Position numbers and translations under genes: made by a program. A model generated the notes under the pieces. That model did no database searches. It worked only from the letters and a program-made list of their open reading frames with translations, and was not told the origin of the DNA. A stretch of 64,000 bases of DNA from Salinisphaera orenii subsp. halophila YIM 95161. GTDB taxonomy: Bacteria; Pseudomonadota; Gammaproteobacteria; Nevskiales; Salinisphaeraceae. Positions 1 to 6,486 of the stretch are shown here, piece by piece (within the stretch, counting starts at the first letter, position 1; each line of letters starts with the position of its first letter). The stretch is taken from the NCBI RefSeq assembly GCF_003732545.1, contig NZ_AYKF01000024.1, positions 1 to 64,000 on the forward strand, written 5' to 3'.

Positions 1-204
1 ACTCATCAAGCACTCCGCCAATAGCCTGAGAGAAGTTTAGCCGGTGGGAGCGTTTTCACACAGCCTGGGCCGATAACGGCCAGTCTTGACGACGCCACTT
101 GCGCAGACGCCATATCAAAGCCGAACCAAGACGACTAATAGATAAGTAAACTTATTACGTCAGTGGAGAGCGCAGTCGTTAACGACTTACGGTTCGCCGC
201 GGAA
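1..204. other. element DNA without a recognisable gene
   Basis: No convincing coding frame is seen here. A small inverted repeat (ATAAG, 4-nt loop, CTTAT) lies near 143-156, just downstream of the AlpA-like gene, and could be a weak terminator. This part is outside any gene I can support. Confidence 0.4.
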
Positions 205-402
205 TTATTGCTGACTTTTTAACCAGTCCACGACTTGCTCCACGATCCATCGTCGCGCGCCGCCAACACGAACATGAGGTGGCATTTGTCGTCCCTGCGA
301 GATTCGATTCGCAATTGTCTGCGGCGCGATCTGGAGAAATTCCGCGAGCTGTACATCGGTCCATAAAGGAACAATATGGGTTGAAACCTCTTTCGTGCGC
401 AT
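205..402 (-). CDS. AlpA-type small helix-turn-helix regulator / excisionase-like protein
   Basis: A 65-residue protein with the layout of the AlpA / HTH_17 family: a short N-terminus, then a winged-helix DNA-binding motif (LWTDVQLAEFLQIAPQTI, about residues 13-30), a recognition stretch ending in RRW (about 50-52), and a C-terminal helix ending in WLKSQQ. Family members act as activators of integrase or excision genes in P4-like satellites and islands, or as recombination directionality factors. It lies about 260 bp from the tRNA-Pro attachment fragment and reads away from it, with a repeat array in between. That placement fits a role in excision, which is inference. Its base composition is poorer in GC than its chromosomal neighbours. 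Confidence 0.65.
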   Translation of the reverse strand: MRTKEVSTHIVPLWTDVQLAEFLQIAPQTIANRISQGRQMPPHVRVGGARRWIVEQVVDWLKSQQ

Positions 403-546
403 TCAGATCTCTCACTGTCGAGGCCACGTCGGCCCCAGCACCCACACTAGTCCGGCGGCGGACAAATCTTTCCCGCAATCGATGATGCCTCTTAATATCA
501 GTAAGACGAACTTGCTCTACCGCAACGGCAAAGAGGCTGCTAAATT

Positions 547-620
547 GGTTGCAGTGGTTGCAAATAAACAACCAGCCATCGGTAACGATTGGTAACGCTT
601 GGTATAAAACGGTTACATAA
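547..620. repeat. phased short repeats next to the attachment site
   Basis: Four consecutive 10-bp units all start with GGT: GGTAACGATT (581-590), GGTAACGCTT (591-600), GGTATAAAAC (601-610) and GGTTACATAA (611-620). Just upstream, GGTTGCA occurs twice (547-553 and 556-562), and TGGTTG (555-560) faces CAACCA (569-574) as an inverted repeat. The 10-bp phasing puts every unit on the same face of the helix. This is typical of cooperative binding by an integrase arm domain or an excisionase. The binding protein is not known; the AlpA-like product nearby is the obvious candidate. Confidence 0.55.
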
Positions 621-664
621 ACAGCCAGTTGCAATTCAACTCGTTGTTTGTACTAGGGCATTTT

Positions 665-714
665 CCACCTTCGGGAGGTGGAGGTCGTAGGTTCAAATCC
701 TGCTACTCCGACCA
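665..714 (+). mobile_element. att site: detached 3' half of tRNA-Pro(CGG)
   Basis: The sequence contains a full anticodon arm (stem CCACC/GGTGG at 665-669 and 677-681, loop TTCGGGA, anticodon CGG at 672-674), then the variable loop, T arm (stem GTAGG/CCTGC, loop TTCAAAT), the 3' acceptor strand TACTCCG, discriminator A and encoded CCA (712-714). No D arm and no matching 5' acceptor strand (expected CGGAGTA) are found upstream; the preceding bases are AT-rich. It is therefore not a functional tRNA but a duplicated 3' part starting at the anticodon arm, as expected for integration at the anticodon-loop sublocation of a tRNA gene. Confidence 0.85.
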
Positions 715-934
715 TCGACGCGATGTCCCGCCCCACCTGTGACCGCAGACCGTTTCCGGTACGGCGCATCCACACGGCGGCCCGCGTTCTCCGACCTGCA
801 TCCCCGCCCACCTGAATACCGACGCCGAATTCCGGATTAATGCGGATGGCGACGTCATCACATCCGGTTCACCCTGCATGGACATTCCGGTCGTCGACGC
901 ACCGGCGCGGCGACCCGACATTGCAGGAGTCTTC

Positions 935-1321
935 ATGCAGACCGATCGTTTCATCGCCCACGTCAATCACGCCTGCCCTTCCCTGGACGCGGATGTCGCC
1001 CACGAGGTCACGCTGATCACGCTGGAAACGCTGTGCGAGCAGCTGCCGCTGGATCAGGCCAAGCGCCTTGCCGCCCAGCTGCCCCAGGAGTTGACGGAGG
1101 CCGTCGAGGCCGGCGGCGACCGAGGCGAGACCTCCGACGTACCGATCACACTCGCCGAGTTCTACAGCAAGCTGATGTTCCGCACCGAGCTCGAGGAGGA
1201 CACCACGCGCCGCGTCGCCCAGGCGGTCGCCAGCGCGCTTCGCCAGGCCGTATCGGACGGCGAGATCTCCGATGTGGCCCTCGATCTGCCGTCGGAACTC
1301 GACCAGCTCGTCGCGGCCTGA
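935..1321 (+). CDS. DUF2267 domain protein
   Basis: A 128-residue acidic protein matching the DUF2267 pattern: an all-helical domain with a repeated motif in which a helix ending LPLDQAKRLAAQLP is followed by an acidic linker and a second helical repeat. The function of the family is not established. The start at 935 is chosen because AGGAG sits at 925-929 with proper spacing. An in-frame ATG at 878 would add 19 residues without a visible ribosome site. It is the first chromosomal gene after the tRNA fragment and stands alone, with about 490 bp free downstream. Confidence 0.75.
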   Translation: MQTDRFIAHVNHACPSLDADVAHEVTLITLETLCEQLPLDQAKRLAAQLPQELTEAVEAGGDRGETSDVPITLAEFYSKLMFRTELEEDTTRRVAQAVASALRQAVSDGEISDVALDLPSELDQLVAA

Positions 1322-1810
1322 AGCCTCGCGGCGACCACGCCCGGTCCGCGAGCGAGCCCGGCGCAGAATCGCACAACGAGCCCACAAGGCCTCACGGCGC
1401 GGTAGGCGACACGACGTCGCCTGGACGTCCCGGGCCAATAGGCTAATACCGCACGCTCGAGTGTGCGGGGCGCACTCGTTTCGCACCGAGCCCGCTCACT
1501 AGGCCGCCGTCTTGTCTGCGAACGCGGCGCCGAGGGCATGTCGGCTCGTGCACAACCAGGCTTGGTGCGCCGCTTGGCTCCAGCCGCGCACGGAGTTCAG
1601 CCGATCGCCGCTACCCGATGAGTTCACGCCCGCCTCGCGGTGGGCGCGAGCTCACCGGCCGTCTACCGGTTCTTGAGGCCTCGATCGCGTCGCGAGAGGT
1701 ATGCACGGCGGTCGACCGCGACCAGGAGCGATCGGGCGACGCTGGGCGCCTGGCGACCGCGCTTCGCCCGTCGCACACCGCGCGCGCCACACGCGCACGT
1801 CGATTTCAGT
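1322..1810. other. gene-free spacer
   Basis: I see no supported gene in these 489 bases; the open frames here have no recognisable content. The only structure noted is a near-perfect 20-bp palindrome at 1449-1468 (CCGCAC...GTGCGG around CTCGAG) and a small hairpin GGCGAC/GTCGCC near 1407-1424. Neither is followed by a T-tract. Confidence 0.5.
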
Positions 1811-2251
1811 TCAGCCGGTCATTTCTGCCATGAAGGCGTCGTAGCTTTTGGCCAGCTCAGTCTTGTCCTCCTCACCGAGCACCCGGCCGGCCTGTTGAAA
1901 GACTTCTTGTTCCTCTTCTTCCAGATGGTGCGTGACCAGTTCCCGCAGCTTTTTCGCATCGCTCAGCCAGGCGGGTGAGCTGTAGTCGGTGGTCTCCAGC
2001 GACTCGACCAGTTCGTCGATCTCGTGATGCTCGGCGACGCTGTGGCGTGCCTTTTCCTGCGTCATGTCGTATTCCATCAGCGGCACGTAGAAATACCGCT
2101 CCTCGGCCGCCGCGTGGTGGGCCAGTTCGGCCTTCAAGGCCACGAAGATGCCGTCGCGCGTATCGCTGTCGCCATGCGTATCCGTGAGCGCATCGAGCAG
2201 GCGACGCTGCTTGTCGTGGCTCTCGCGCAGGGCCTCGAATATGTTTTTCAC
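1811..2251 (-). CDS. hemerythrin HHE-domain protein
   Basis: A 146-residue soluble protein of the bacterial hemerythrin-like (HHE) family, a four-helix bundle that can bind a di-iron centre and oxygen or act in iron or redox sensing. Metal-ligand candidates follow the family order: ESHDKQRRLLD near residues 8-18, HHAAAEERYFY in the middle, a second HxxxE-type segment (AEHHEIDELV), and HHLEEEEQEVF near the C-terminus. The start is GTG at 2251; an in-frame ATG farther upstream would run through the intergenic region. It is divergent from pilB with 177 bp between them. Which of oxygen, NO or iron it handles cannot be told from sequence. Confidence 0.85.
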   Translation of the reverse strand: MKNIFEALRESHDKQRRLLDALTDTHGDSDTRDGIFVALKAELAHHAAAEERYFYVPLMEYDMTQEKARHSVAEHHEIDELVESLETTDYSSPAWLSDAKKLRELVTHHLEEEEQEVFQQAGRVLGEEDKTELAKSYDAFMAEMTG

Positions 2252-2428
2252 GTACCTTCCCCGTTTTTGGTCGATCGCGCATGGTAGCGTCATGACAAAC
2301 ACCATAGAATCCGTACCGTTGCTGACGCACATCGATCTTCGTCCCCGCCCGCCGGCCATCCGTGTCGGGGCTTTTGTGGCAGACCGTTCCATAGCGCGGG
2401 CGCGTTCTGGCCGTCCGGGGATACATCC

Positions 2429-4153
2429 ATGGCGATGAACAGGCGCAACGCGGCGACGCCTGCCCTCGGCGGTCTGGCGCGACAGCTGGTCGAGGACGGC
2501 CTGATTGAGGCGGAGACCGCGGCGCAGGCCCAGCGCGAGGCGGTCCGCGACGAGGAGTCGTTCGTTGCCCGCGTGGTGAACCGGGGCCTGCTCAGCGCCG
2601 CCGTTCTGGCCAAGGCGGCATGCGAGGAGTTCTCGATGCCACTGCTGGATCTGCGGGCGATCGATCTGGCCCAGGCGCCGGTCCAGAAGGTGTCCGAGTC
2701 GCTGATCCGCAAGCACGGCGCGCTGCCGATCTTCCAGCGCGGGCGCAACCTGTTCCTCGCGGTGGCGGATCCGACCAATCTGGCCGCCCTCGATGAATTC
2801 CAGTTCAACACGGGGCTCAACATCGAGCCCGTGCTGGTCGAGCAGGACAAACTCGCGCGCGCGATCGACAGCGCGTTCAGCGCGCTCGACAGCGCCATGG
2901 CCGGCCTCGACGACGTCTCGCTCGACAATCTCGGCGTGGATGAAGGCGAAACCGAGATTCCCGACGCGACGCGGGTCGATTCCGACGATGCGCCGGTGGT
3001 GCGGTTCGTGAACAAGGTATTGCTCGACGCGATCCACAAGCGGGCCTCGGACATCCACTTCGAGCCCTACGAGCAACGCTATCGGGTACGCATGCGTCAG
3101 GACGGCGTGCTGCGCGAGGTGGCGGCGCCGCCGGCCGCGCTCGGGATGCGACTGTCGGCGCGCCTGAAGGTGATGGCGCGCCTGGACCTCGCCGAGCGGC
3201 GTATCCCCCAGGACGGCCGTATCAAGCTCAACCTATCTCGCAACCGCGCGATCGACTTCCGCGTGTCCACCTGCCCCACGCTCCACGGCGAGAAGATCGT
3301 GCTGCGTATCCTCGATCCGGCCAGCGCGCAGATGGGCATCGAGGCGCTGGGTTACGACGATGCCCAGCGCGCGCTGTTCGAGGATGCCATCCATCGCCCC
3401 TACGGTATGGTCCTGGTCACCGGTCCAACCGGCAGCGGCAAGACGGTGTCGCTCTACACCGCGCTCAACATCCTCAATACCGCCGACCGCAATATTTCGA
3501 CGGCCGAGGATCCGGCGGAAATCAATCTCCCGGGTATCAATCAGGTCAACGTCCACCCGAAGGTCGGGCTGACATTCGCGACCTGCCTGCGTGCCTTTCT
3601 ACGCCAGGACCCGGACGTGATCATGGTCGGCGAGATCCGCGACCTGGAAACCGCCGAGATCGCCATCAAGGCGGCGCAGACCGGCCATATGGTGTTGTCG
3701 ACGCTGCATACCAACGACGCACCGCAGACGCTCACACGGCTGATCAACATGGGCGTGCCGGCCTACAACATCGCCGCCTCGGTCTCGCTGATCATCGCCC
3801 AGCGACTGGCGCGCCGCCTGTGCCCGCACTGCAAGCAGCCCGCCGAGATTCCGACCGCGGAGCTCGTGGCGGAGGGTTTTCGCGAAGACGAGATCGACGC
3901 CCTGACGATCTTCGAGGCGAACCTCGAAGGCTGCGACAATTGCACCAAGGGCTATTCCGGCCGTGTCGGCATCTATCAGGTGATGCCGGTGACCGACGCC
4001 GTCGGGCAGATCATCATGGACGGCGGCAATGCGCGCGACATCGAGCGTCAGGCCGAATCCGACGGCGTACTGGATCTTCGCCAGGCCGGGCTGCAGAAGG
4101 TCCGCGCGGGCGTGCTCGGCCTGGCCGAGGTCAATCGCGTCACCGTCGACTGA
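2429..4153 (+). CDS. pilB: type IV pilus assembly ATPase PilB
   Basis: A 574-residue GspE/PilB-family hexameric ATPase that drives pilus extension from the cytoplasmic face of the inner membrane. An N-terminal GspE_N-like domain (about 1-150) precedes the ATPase core with Walker A GPTGSGKT (332-339), an Asp box, the Walker B region DPDVIMVGEIRD (394-405) and a His box GHMVLSTLHTND. A tetracysteine zinc motif is present, CPHC (465-468) and CDNC (502-505), as in PilB and GspE. Length and domain order are normal. In most gammaproteobacteria pilB is followed by pilC and pilD; here the next gene is convergent clpA, so pilB is isolated. GspE is a less likely alternative because no type II secretion genes are nearby. 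Confidence 0.9.
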   Translation: MAMNRRNAATPALGGLARQLVEDGLIEAETAAQAQREAVRDEESFVARVVNRGLLSAAVLAKAACEEFSMPLLDLRAIDLAQAPVQKVSESLIRKHGALPIFQRGRNLFLAVADPTNLAALDEFQFNTGLNIEPVLVEQDKLARAIDSAFSALDSAMAGLDDVSLDNLGVDEGETEIPDATRVDSDDAPVVRFVNKVLLDAIHKRASDIHFEPYEQRYRVRMRQDGVLREVAAPPAALGMRLSARLKVMARLDLAERRIPQDGRIKLNLSRNRAIDFRVSTCPTLHGEKIVLRILDPASAQMGIEALGYDDAQRALFEDAIHRPYGMVLVTGPTGSGKTVSLYTALNILNTADRNISTAEDPAEINLPGINQVNVHPKVGLTFATCLRAFLRQDPDVIMVGEIRDLETAEIAIKAAQTGHMVLSTLHTNDAPQTLTRLINMGVPAYNIAASVSLIIAQRLARRLCPHCKQPAEIPTAELVAEGFREDEIDALTIFEANLEGCDNCTKGYSGRVGIYQVMPVTDAVGQIIMDGGNARDIERQAESDGVLDLRQAGLQKVRAGVLGLAEVNRVTVD

Positions 4154-4168
4154 GCGCAACGAACACGA

Positions 4169-4200
4169 CAGGGCGGCGCCACCCCGCCGGCGCCGCCCTG
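4169..4200. terminator. strong hairpin between convergent pilB and clpA
   Basis: A 12-bp perfect GC-rich stem (CAGGGCGGCGCC with GGCGCCGCCCTG) encloses an 8-nt loop and lies in the 71-bp gap between the two stop codons. There is no T-tract on either side, so it may be a bidirectional 3'-end stabiliser or a weak terminator. Confidence 0.5.
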
Positions 4201-4224
4201 AAGATCCGGCCCCGTCGTCCGGAA

Positions 4225-6486
4225 TCAGGCCTCGGCCGTCTCCTTCGGCGACACGTCGAGTTCCAGTTCGTCGTCGTGCACCCGCACGACCACGCGACCG
4301 CCGTCGGCGAGCCGACCGAAGAGCAGCTCCTCGGCGAGCGGCTTCTTGATGTGCTCCTGGATCACCCGCCCCATCGGACGTGCGCCCATCTTCACGTCGT
4401 AGCCGCGCTCGGCGAGCCAGTGGCGGGCTTCCTGCTCGACCACGAGCTCGACGCCGCGGGCCTCGAGCTGGGCCTCCAGCTGCAGGATGAACTTGTCGAC
4501 CACCCGCTCGACGACCTCGCCCTGCAGCGGCTGGAACTGGATGATCGAATCCAGACGGTTGCGGAACTCGGGCGTGAAGCCGCGGCGGATCGCCTCCAGC
4601 CCGTCGCTGCTGTTGTCCGACGGGTTGAAGCCGATACCACGCCGGGCCATGTCCTCGGCCCCGGCGTTGGTCGTCATCACCAGGATCACGTTGCGGAAGT
4701 CCGCCTCGCGTCCGTTGTTGTCGGTCAGCTTGCCGTGGTCCATGACCTGCAGTAGCAGGTTGAAGATATCCGGATGCGCTTTCTCGATCTCGTCGAGGAG
4801 CACCACGGAGTGCGGCTGCTTGGTCACCGCCTCGGTGAGCAGGCCGCCCTGGTCGTAGCCGACATAGCCCGGCGGCGCGCCGATCAGACGGGATACGGTA
4901 TGCCGCTCCATGTACTCCGACATGTCGAAGCGGATGAGATCGACGCCCAGATGCAGCGAAAGCTGGCGCGTGACTTCGGTCTTGCCCACGCCCGTCGGGC
5001 CGGCGAACAGGAAGGAGCCGATCGGCTTGTCGCGGTTGTCCAGCCCGGAGCGCGACATCTTGATCGCGCTTGCCAGCGAGGTGACGGCCTCGTCCTGGCC
5101 GAAGATCACGAGCTTGAGATCGCGTTCGAGCGTCTTGAGGACATCGCGATCGTCACGGGAGACGGTCTTCGACGGAATCCGCGCGATGCGCGAGACCATG
5201 TCCTCGATGTCACGCACCTGCACGGTCTTGCGACGCTTGCCGGAGGGCCGCAGACGCAGCCGCGCGCCGGCCTCGTCGATCACGTCGATGGCCTTGTCGG
5301 GCAGATGCCGATCGTTGATGTGACGCGCCGAGAGTTCGGCCGCGGCTTCCAGCGCCGGCTGCGTGTAGCGCACCTGGTGATGACTCTCGAAGCGATCCTT
5401 GAGCCCGCGCAGAATCTGGACCGTATCCGCGACGGTCGGCTCGGGCACGTCGATCTTCTGGAAGCGACGGGCCAGCGCGCGGTCCTTTTCGAACACGCCG
5501 CGGTATTCCTGGTAGGTAGTCGCGCCCATGCAGCGCAGCTCGCCCGAGGCGAGCTTCGGCTTGAGCAGGTTGGAGGCGTCCATCACGCCGCCGGAGGCCG
5601 CGCCCGCGCCGATCACCGTGTGGATCTCGTCGATGAACAGGACTGAGCCTTCCTGCTTGCCCAGTTCGGCCAGCACCGCCTTCAGCCGCTTCTCGAAATC
5701 GCCGCGATACTTGGTGCCGGCGATCAGCGCGCCGAGATCCAGCGCGTAGATCACACTCTTGCTGAGCACGTCCGGCACCTCGCCATCGACGATCTGGCGG
5801 GCCAGACCCTCGGCGATCGCGGTCTTGCCCACACCGGCCTCGCCGACCAGCAGCGGGTTGTTCTTGCGCCGGCGGCACAGCGTCTGCACCACCCGTTCGA
5901 TCTCGTGATCGCGGCCGATCAGCGGATCGACCCGGCCTTCGGCGGCCTTGCGGTTGAGATTGGTGGCGTACTGGTCCAGCGCCGACTTCGACTCGCCCGC
6001 CTCGTCGCCGGTCTTCTCGGCGCTGTCGGTCGGCTGCTCGCCGGACTCCTCGCCCGACTTGCTCACGCCGTGGGAGACGAAGTTGACCACGTCCAGCCGG
6101 GTGACACCCTGCTCGCCGAGCAGGTACACGGCGTGGGACTCCTGCTCGGAGAAGATCGCGATCAGGACATTGACCGCCGTCACCTCTTTCTTGCCGGACG
6201 ACTGCACGTGATAGACCGCACGCTGCAGCACGCGCTGGAAGCCCAGCGTCGGCTGCACCTCGTGGTCCTCACCTGCCGGCACGACCGGCACGTGGGTATC
6301 GATATAGCTCTTGAGTTCGCGCTCCAGGCGCGCGATGTCGGCATTGACCGACTCCAGCACCTCGATCACCGCCGGATTGTCGAGCAACGACATCAGCAGG
6401 TGTTCGACGGTCAGCATCTCGTGGTGCTGCCGCCGGGCCACCATGAAGGCGGCATCGAGTGCGGTTTGCAGTTCCTGGCTCAGCAT
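4225..6486 (-). CDS. clpA: ATP-dependent Clp protease ATP-binding subunit ClpA
   Basis: A 753-residue class I AAA+ unfoldase, close to the usual ClpA length of about 758. It unfolds substrates, including those handed over by ClpS, and feeds them to ClpP. The sequence shows an N-terminal Clp_N double repeat (1-145), an acidic linker, D1 with Walker A GEAGVGKT (215-222), and D2 with Walker A GPTGVGKT (496-503). An [14 protein letters not shown] pore or Walker-adjacent stretch follows. The start at 6486 (MLSQEL) is the canonical ClpA N-terminus; upstream in-frame Met codons run into unlikely sequence. clpS lies 61 bp upstream on the same strand, the standard pairing. clpP is not in the window. 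Confidence 0.97.

Follow-up and report, generated by a model that had tools for sequence, protein, structure and literature searches.

In the scheme of Williams 2002, anticodon-centred att sites reportedly form a class of their own (class A of Islander). Rhizobium phage 16-3 is said, in the title of Semsey et al. 2002, to integrate into tRNA-Pro(CGG) genes in different genera. According to the Islander paper, anticodon-centred sites, one of the two classes counted, account for 2083 of 3919 islands (PMC4383910). In Pseudomonas aeruginosa, PAGI-97A and its relatives occupy a single-copy tRNA-Pro(GGG) gene and are bounded by a 49-bp repeat, the tRNA 3' end having been duplicated (PMC8373256).

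In this study, we analysed a window of 64,000 nucleotides of Salinisphaera orenii subsp. halophila YIM 95161, which starts at base 1 of its contig (C24). Positions 665-716 are almost certainly the attR of a genomic island inserted in tRNA-Pro(CGG) between ispB and a gene for a DUF2267 protein, with attL and attR on separate contigs. Like the anticodon-centred tRNA islands of Islander class A, the present island has an intact tRNA gene and a displaced 3' fragment as its ends and an integrase gene adjoining the intact tRNA. It differs from them in that an insertion sequence (IS) interrupts the integrase gene and the cargo is a benzoate cluster; in the integration itself we saw no difference. It belongs to the ordinary tRNA-targeting islands, with a repeat border that marks it as anticodon-centred, and its integration mechanism is textbook, with nothing new in it. 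The target tRNA-Pro(CGG) is shared with phage 16-3, a likeness known from the title alone. PAGI-97A is similar as an island at a tRNA-Pro gene bounded by a repeat of the tRNA 3' end, whereas it has the GGG isoacceptor, a P4-type integrase and other cargo (PMC8373256). The features of the window are as follows.

1-72, no strand: probable insertion-sequence end at the contig break, suggested by a weak 23-bp match (bases 50-72 equal C145:50-72, at the same distance from the contig start)
73-664, no strand: low-G+C right tail of the integrated island (49.7%, versus 66.3% at 715-5000) and missing at the empty site of congener G012
205-402, minus strand: 65-aa helix-turn-helix protein, excisionase-like (Pfam HTH_17, E = 1.4e-5, just below the cut-off with 25.7 of 27 bits)
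546-561, plus strand: two TGGTTGC repeats 9 bp apart (starts 546 and 555), candidate integrase arm-binding sites (shuffle test)
665-714, plus strand: displaced tRNA-Pro(CGG) 3' half, not a working tRNA gene (intact copy at C146:812-888, minus strand)
665-716, plus strand: attR, a 52-bp direct repeat in common with attL at C146:810-861 (100% identity; left border: first base of the anticodon stem)
717-1321, plus strand: chromosomal right flank with the DUF2267 gene at 878-1321 (Pfam DUF2267, E = 2e-24)

Positions 665-714 read as the anticodon arm with anticodon CGG (CCACC-TTCGGGA-GGTGG), the variable loop, the T arm, the 3' acceptor strand and CCA. Upstream of 665, the D arm and the matching 5' acceptor strand were absent, both on reading the sequence and in a fold of 642-717. 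The best match of the block in the genome was C146:810-861 on the minus strand, identical over 52 bp (E = 1.1e-20), and the runner-up, with 94% identity over 33 bp, was the window's ordinary tRNA-Pro(GGG) gene. An earlier note on this DNA had described a tRNA 3' half lacking the D arm and 5' acceptor strand upstream, with an abrupt change to AT-rich DNA on its left; the fold and the step in G+C at the fragment bear this out. The note had also let the fragment begin at the anticodon arm, as we found, and end with CCA, but the identity runs 2 bases further and the repeat is 52 bp long. DNA resembling the 52-bp block was found in 71 phage and 22 plasmid records, and several of the phage matches among those listed were annotated as tRNA-Pro.

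ARAGORN called a tRNA-Pro(CGG) gene at 642-714, yet only the 3' half is present there. The Rfam tRNA model scored this segment below its gathering cut-off, and the segment was missing from the 43 whole-genome tRNA matches (E ≤ 0.001). We therefore flag the call as false, and automatic annotation could overcount the tRNA genes by one at this place. A published account describes how partial tRNAs that result from such insertions come to be mistaken for genes (PMC9897764). The ARAGORN call would also suit another explanation that involves no integration, with the fragment arising from a stray partial duplication or from the decay of a second tRNA-Pro(CGG) gene; the same paper describes partial tRNA copies that arose in other ways (PMC9897764). 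We consider this explanation hardly credible, since the repeat extends from the anticodon stem to slightly beyond the tRNA 3' end, an integrase gene adjoins the intact tRNA gene, and both outer flanks are united at the empty site, as given below.

The intact gene was found by ARAGORN as a 77-base tRNA-Pro(CGG) at C146:812-888 on the minus strand. On its 5' side lies a gene with a polyprenyl synthetase domain match, which we take to be ispB, and the reading frames beyond it were presumably rplU, rpmA, obgE and proB (names assigned by reading). On the same strand, an integrase gene begins 160 bp past the 3' end of the tRNA; its start is probably the GTG at C146:651 in our reading. Thus, the second, intact tRNA-Pro(CGG) that repeats the block and has an integrase next to it, which the earlier note had proposed to look for, is present on C146.

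Furthermore, the DUF2267 gene (878-1321) had a match in 12 of the 21 genomes searched, and the copy of congener G012 was 96% identical. At this locus (G012:C1), G012 has one intact tRNA-Pro(CGG). Over 1020 bases, the sequence to the left of the tRNA shared 98% identity with the ispB side of C146, and that on the right, which directly continues the intact tRNA, was 95% identical to window 665-1334. In the locus comparison, no element lay between the ispB and DUF2267 flanks of G012. The locus of G012 is an empty site joining both outer flanks, as its alignment to the two contigs indicates. Meanwhile, a 31-base tRNA pattern (up to 3 mismatches) occurred once in 12 of the 13 congeners and twice in the source genome only; it had no copy in the thirteenth congener, an assembly 81% complete, and the reversed control of the pattern gave no occurrence. 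One tRNA copy in 12 congeners and joined flanks in G012 are what insertion into the gene predicts, so attL lies on C146 and attR in the window. The intact tRNA gene and the displaced 3' fragment are thus the ends of the element, and because these ends are on two contigs, their order and orientation are deduced from the empty site. The empty site in a related genome was the other check suggested beforehand. With the intact tRNA, the integrase and the empty site in hand, the claim that the detached 3' half marks the end of an integrated element is supported. An island with its other end and cargo on separate draft contigs had been rightly predicted from a tRNA fragment of 50 bp close to the edge of a contig.

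The island would have formed in a few steps. A tyrosine integrase would have recombined the attP of the element, carrying a copy of the tRNA 3' half, with the tRNA-Pro(CGG) gene. The 3'-half copy of the element would then complete the tRNA at attL on C146, and the original 3' half would have been moved to the opposite end of the island, forming the fragment of the window. Later, an IS3-type element would have entered the integrase gene, and autonomous excision was probably lost. The anticodon stem strands flank the 7-base loop symmetrically, and the identity block opens at the first base of the stem. This is consistent with a crossover in the anticodon loop, which could also have fallen at any of the 52 identical bases; the crossover is not placed more finely because all 52 are identical. 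The part of the earlier note that named a tyrosine recombinase acting at a tRNA gene stands, while its anticodon-loop crossover is a deduction from the start of the identity.

The tyrosine integrase gene lies within the element near an end, though it is interrupted by an IS. The piece on C146 (N-piece) matched the PHROG 1 integrase (E = 7.1e-13), and its sole Pfam match, an arm-binding one, fell below the threshold (E = 0.19). The other piece (C-piece) lies at C131:9578-10057 on the minus strand, adjoining an IS end, and matched PF00589 (E = 1.6e-14). The reading frame at C146:31-741 (236 aa) had been considered as an integrase fragment with a natural stop. We rejected this reading because its end falls inside the IS; C146:1-68 recurs in inverted orientation at both ends of contig C151, so the last residues of the 236-aa frame are coded by the IS.

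A diverged IS on contig C78 matches the end of C146 with one of its ends (91% over 47 bases) and the right end of C131 with the other (91% over 43 bases). Its reading frames encode a 105-aa PF01527 transposase and a 301-aa rve/HTH_21 protein. A two-ORF transposase with PF01527 and rve and a short target duplication were taken by us to denote the IS3 type. The two-ORF transposase inside the ends was read from the diverged C78 copy, not from the copy in the integrase gene, and the short duplication is the 4-bp GTGC at C131:10060-10063 and at C146:69-72. Moreover, both pieces align end to end and in one reading frame with the integrases of two other loci (L069 and L087): the alignment of the N-piece reaches its final residue, and that of the C-piece opens 12 residues further on, at C-piece residue 13. 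The match to L069 had E = 1.2e-13 for the N-piece and 1.3e-11 for the C-piece; for L087, the N-piece match was weak (E = 0.018) and that of the C-piece had E = 2.7e-14. Because the GTGC duplications agree and the pieces abut on related integrases, C146 and C131 would be neighbours across one IS copy, with the connecting copy absent from the assembly. With an IS3-type element in its integrase gene, the island has probably lost its self-mobility.

Since the IS is multi-copy and contig ends at its borders are ambiguous, C131 could instead be foreign to the island, its truncated integrase coming from another element struck by the same IS. This is very improbable. The 4-bp duplications match between C131 and C146 and differ from the bases beside the C151 copies of the IS end (GTGG and AGGG), and both pieces abut on the same related integrases. 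In addition, among the nine PF00589 matches of the genome, only the C131 frame is as short as 174 aa, the others having 325-581 aa. C151 itself (4274 bp; L038/L045) has the inverted copies of one IS end at both sides and, at 696-1336, a MazE-type antitoxin and PIN-domain ORF pair, by its looks a toxin-antitoxin pair.

If C131 is the neighbour of C146, the whole contig (10,134 bp) lies inside the island by position, since no further copy of the att block was found on it. The ben cluster shares this contig with the integrase C-piece. The benD (NF040811) and benB (TIGR03232) genes scored above their cut-offs, and benA fell below its own (TIGR03229, 734.8 of 780.95 bits). The benC gene (NF040810) is in two frames, both pieces below the cut-off: at C131:943-1861 (L027), BenC positions 36-104 are in one ORF and 106-332 in another, which is either a broken gene or an assembly error. 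The other genes of C131 encode an AraC-type regulator, a ParD-like protein and an IS transposase. Thus, the cargo is predicted to be a benABCD-type benzoate dioxygenase cluster with an AraC-type regulator. No close BenA relative was found in the 13 congeners; six of the 13 had any match, at 23-30% identity or at 43% over about 84 residues. Meanwhile, 933 plasmid records matched BenA, and the eight listed of these 933 were 72-76% identical. The left end of C131 matched no other place in the genome. These results place the benzoate cluster on acquired DNA. A tentative reading, to which we give somewhat less than even weight, is that the tRNA-Pro(CGG) island brought the benzoate-degradation cluster into the lineage and that the IS in the integrase then fixed it in the chromosome. 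If this is true, a catabolic island has been caught while turning into a permanent part of the chromosome.

The earlier note had placed the element to the left of the fragment, with its integrase and cargo outside the window. This is right for the integrase and the known cargo, but the window does contain 664 bp of the element, including a small helix-turn-helix gene. The protein encoded at 205-402, which we liken to AlpA, matched PHROG 66, 'excisionase and transcriptional regulator' (E = 1.9e-5), and had no NCBIfam match at 0.001; its product may act as an excisionase. TGGTTGC also occurs twice near the other end of the element (C146:738-744 and 766-772). The top count was reached in 10 of 1000 shuffles for 7-mers, 11 of 1000 for 6-mers and 638 of 1000 for 8-mers, so the repeats are at most candidate integrase arm sites, and the evidence for that role is suggestive only. 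Scans of window 1-900 for promoters and terminators found none.

The assembly breaks at IS copies, and about 11.6 kb are assigned to the island (C146:1-811, C131 and window 1-664). With the middle unassembled, the element might be a prophage or a conjugative element that has its other genes there and may still be mobile, through a second integrase or in trans. The excisionase-like reading frame is open, and there are further integrase genes in the genome, both of which fit such an element. We regard it as rather unlikely, because the integrase gene is split by the IS and ten C131 proteins gave no phage structural or conjugation family in Pfam, relaxase and type IV secretion included (these ten are part of the ORFs, and PHROGs were applied outside the cargo). 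Furthermore, no plasmid matched either integrase piece at 1e-5 and no phage matched the N-piece at 1e-5; the C-piece matched 10 distant phage records (E up to 0.01), the best at 33% identity. The phage collection searched includes phage 16-3, and its record was not one of these 10. The island with a split integrase remains the preferred explanation.

With the 236-aa C146 frame as query, four of 61 genomes matched, namely the source genome and three weak matches outside the genus, and none of the 13 congeners did. At E up to 1e-8, the C-piece matched four of 369 genomes of the class, the source included, with two congeners among the matches listed. It had eight loci in the genome collection, and its 11 loci in all are 10 distinct ones, L067 being the same DNA as L088. 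Five of the 10 have a same-strand tRNA gene upstream: Arg in L068, L087 and L089, Thr in L069 and Ala in L073. In the other five (L066, L067 = L088, L070, L071 and L072), ARAGORN found no tRNA within the stretch seen, which covers only 763 upstream bases in L066 and 636 in L067.

Other integrases of the source genome are also near tRNA genes. The matches on C89 (one) and C99 (two) start within about 1.3 kb downstream of a same-strand tRNA, by coordinates. Beyond the window, C24:74470-75634 (L012) has a tyrosine integrase match at 75131-75634 downstream of tRNA-Asn(GTT) on the same strand, and this locus is probably another tRNA island.
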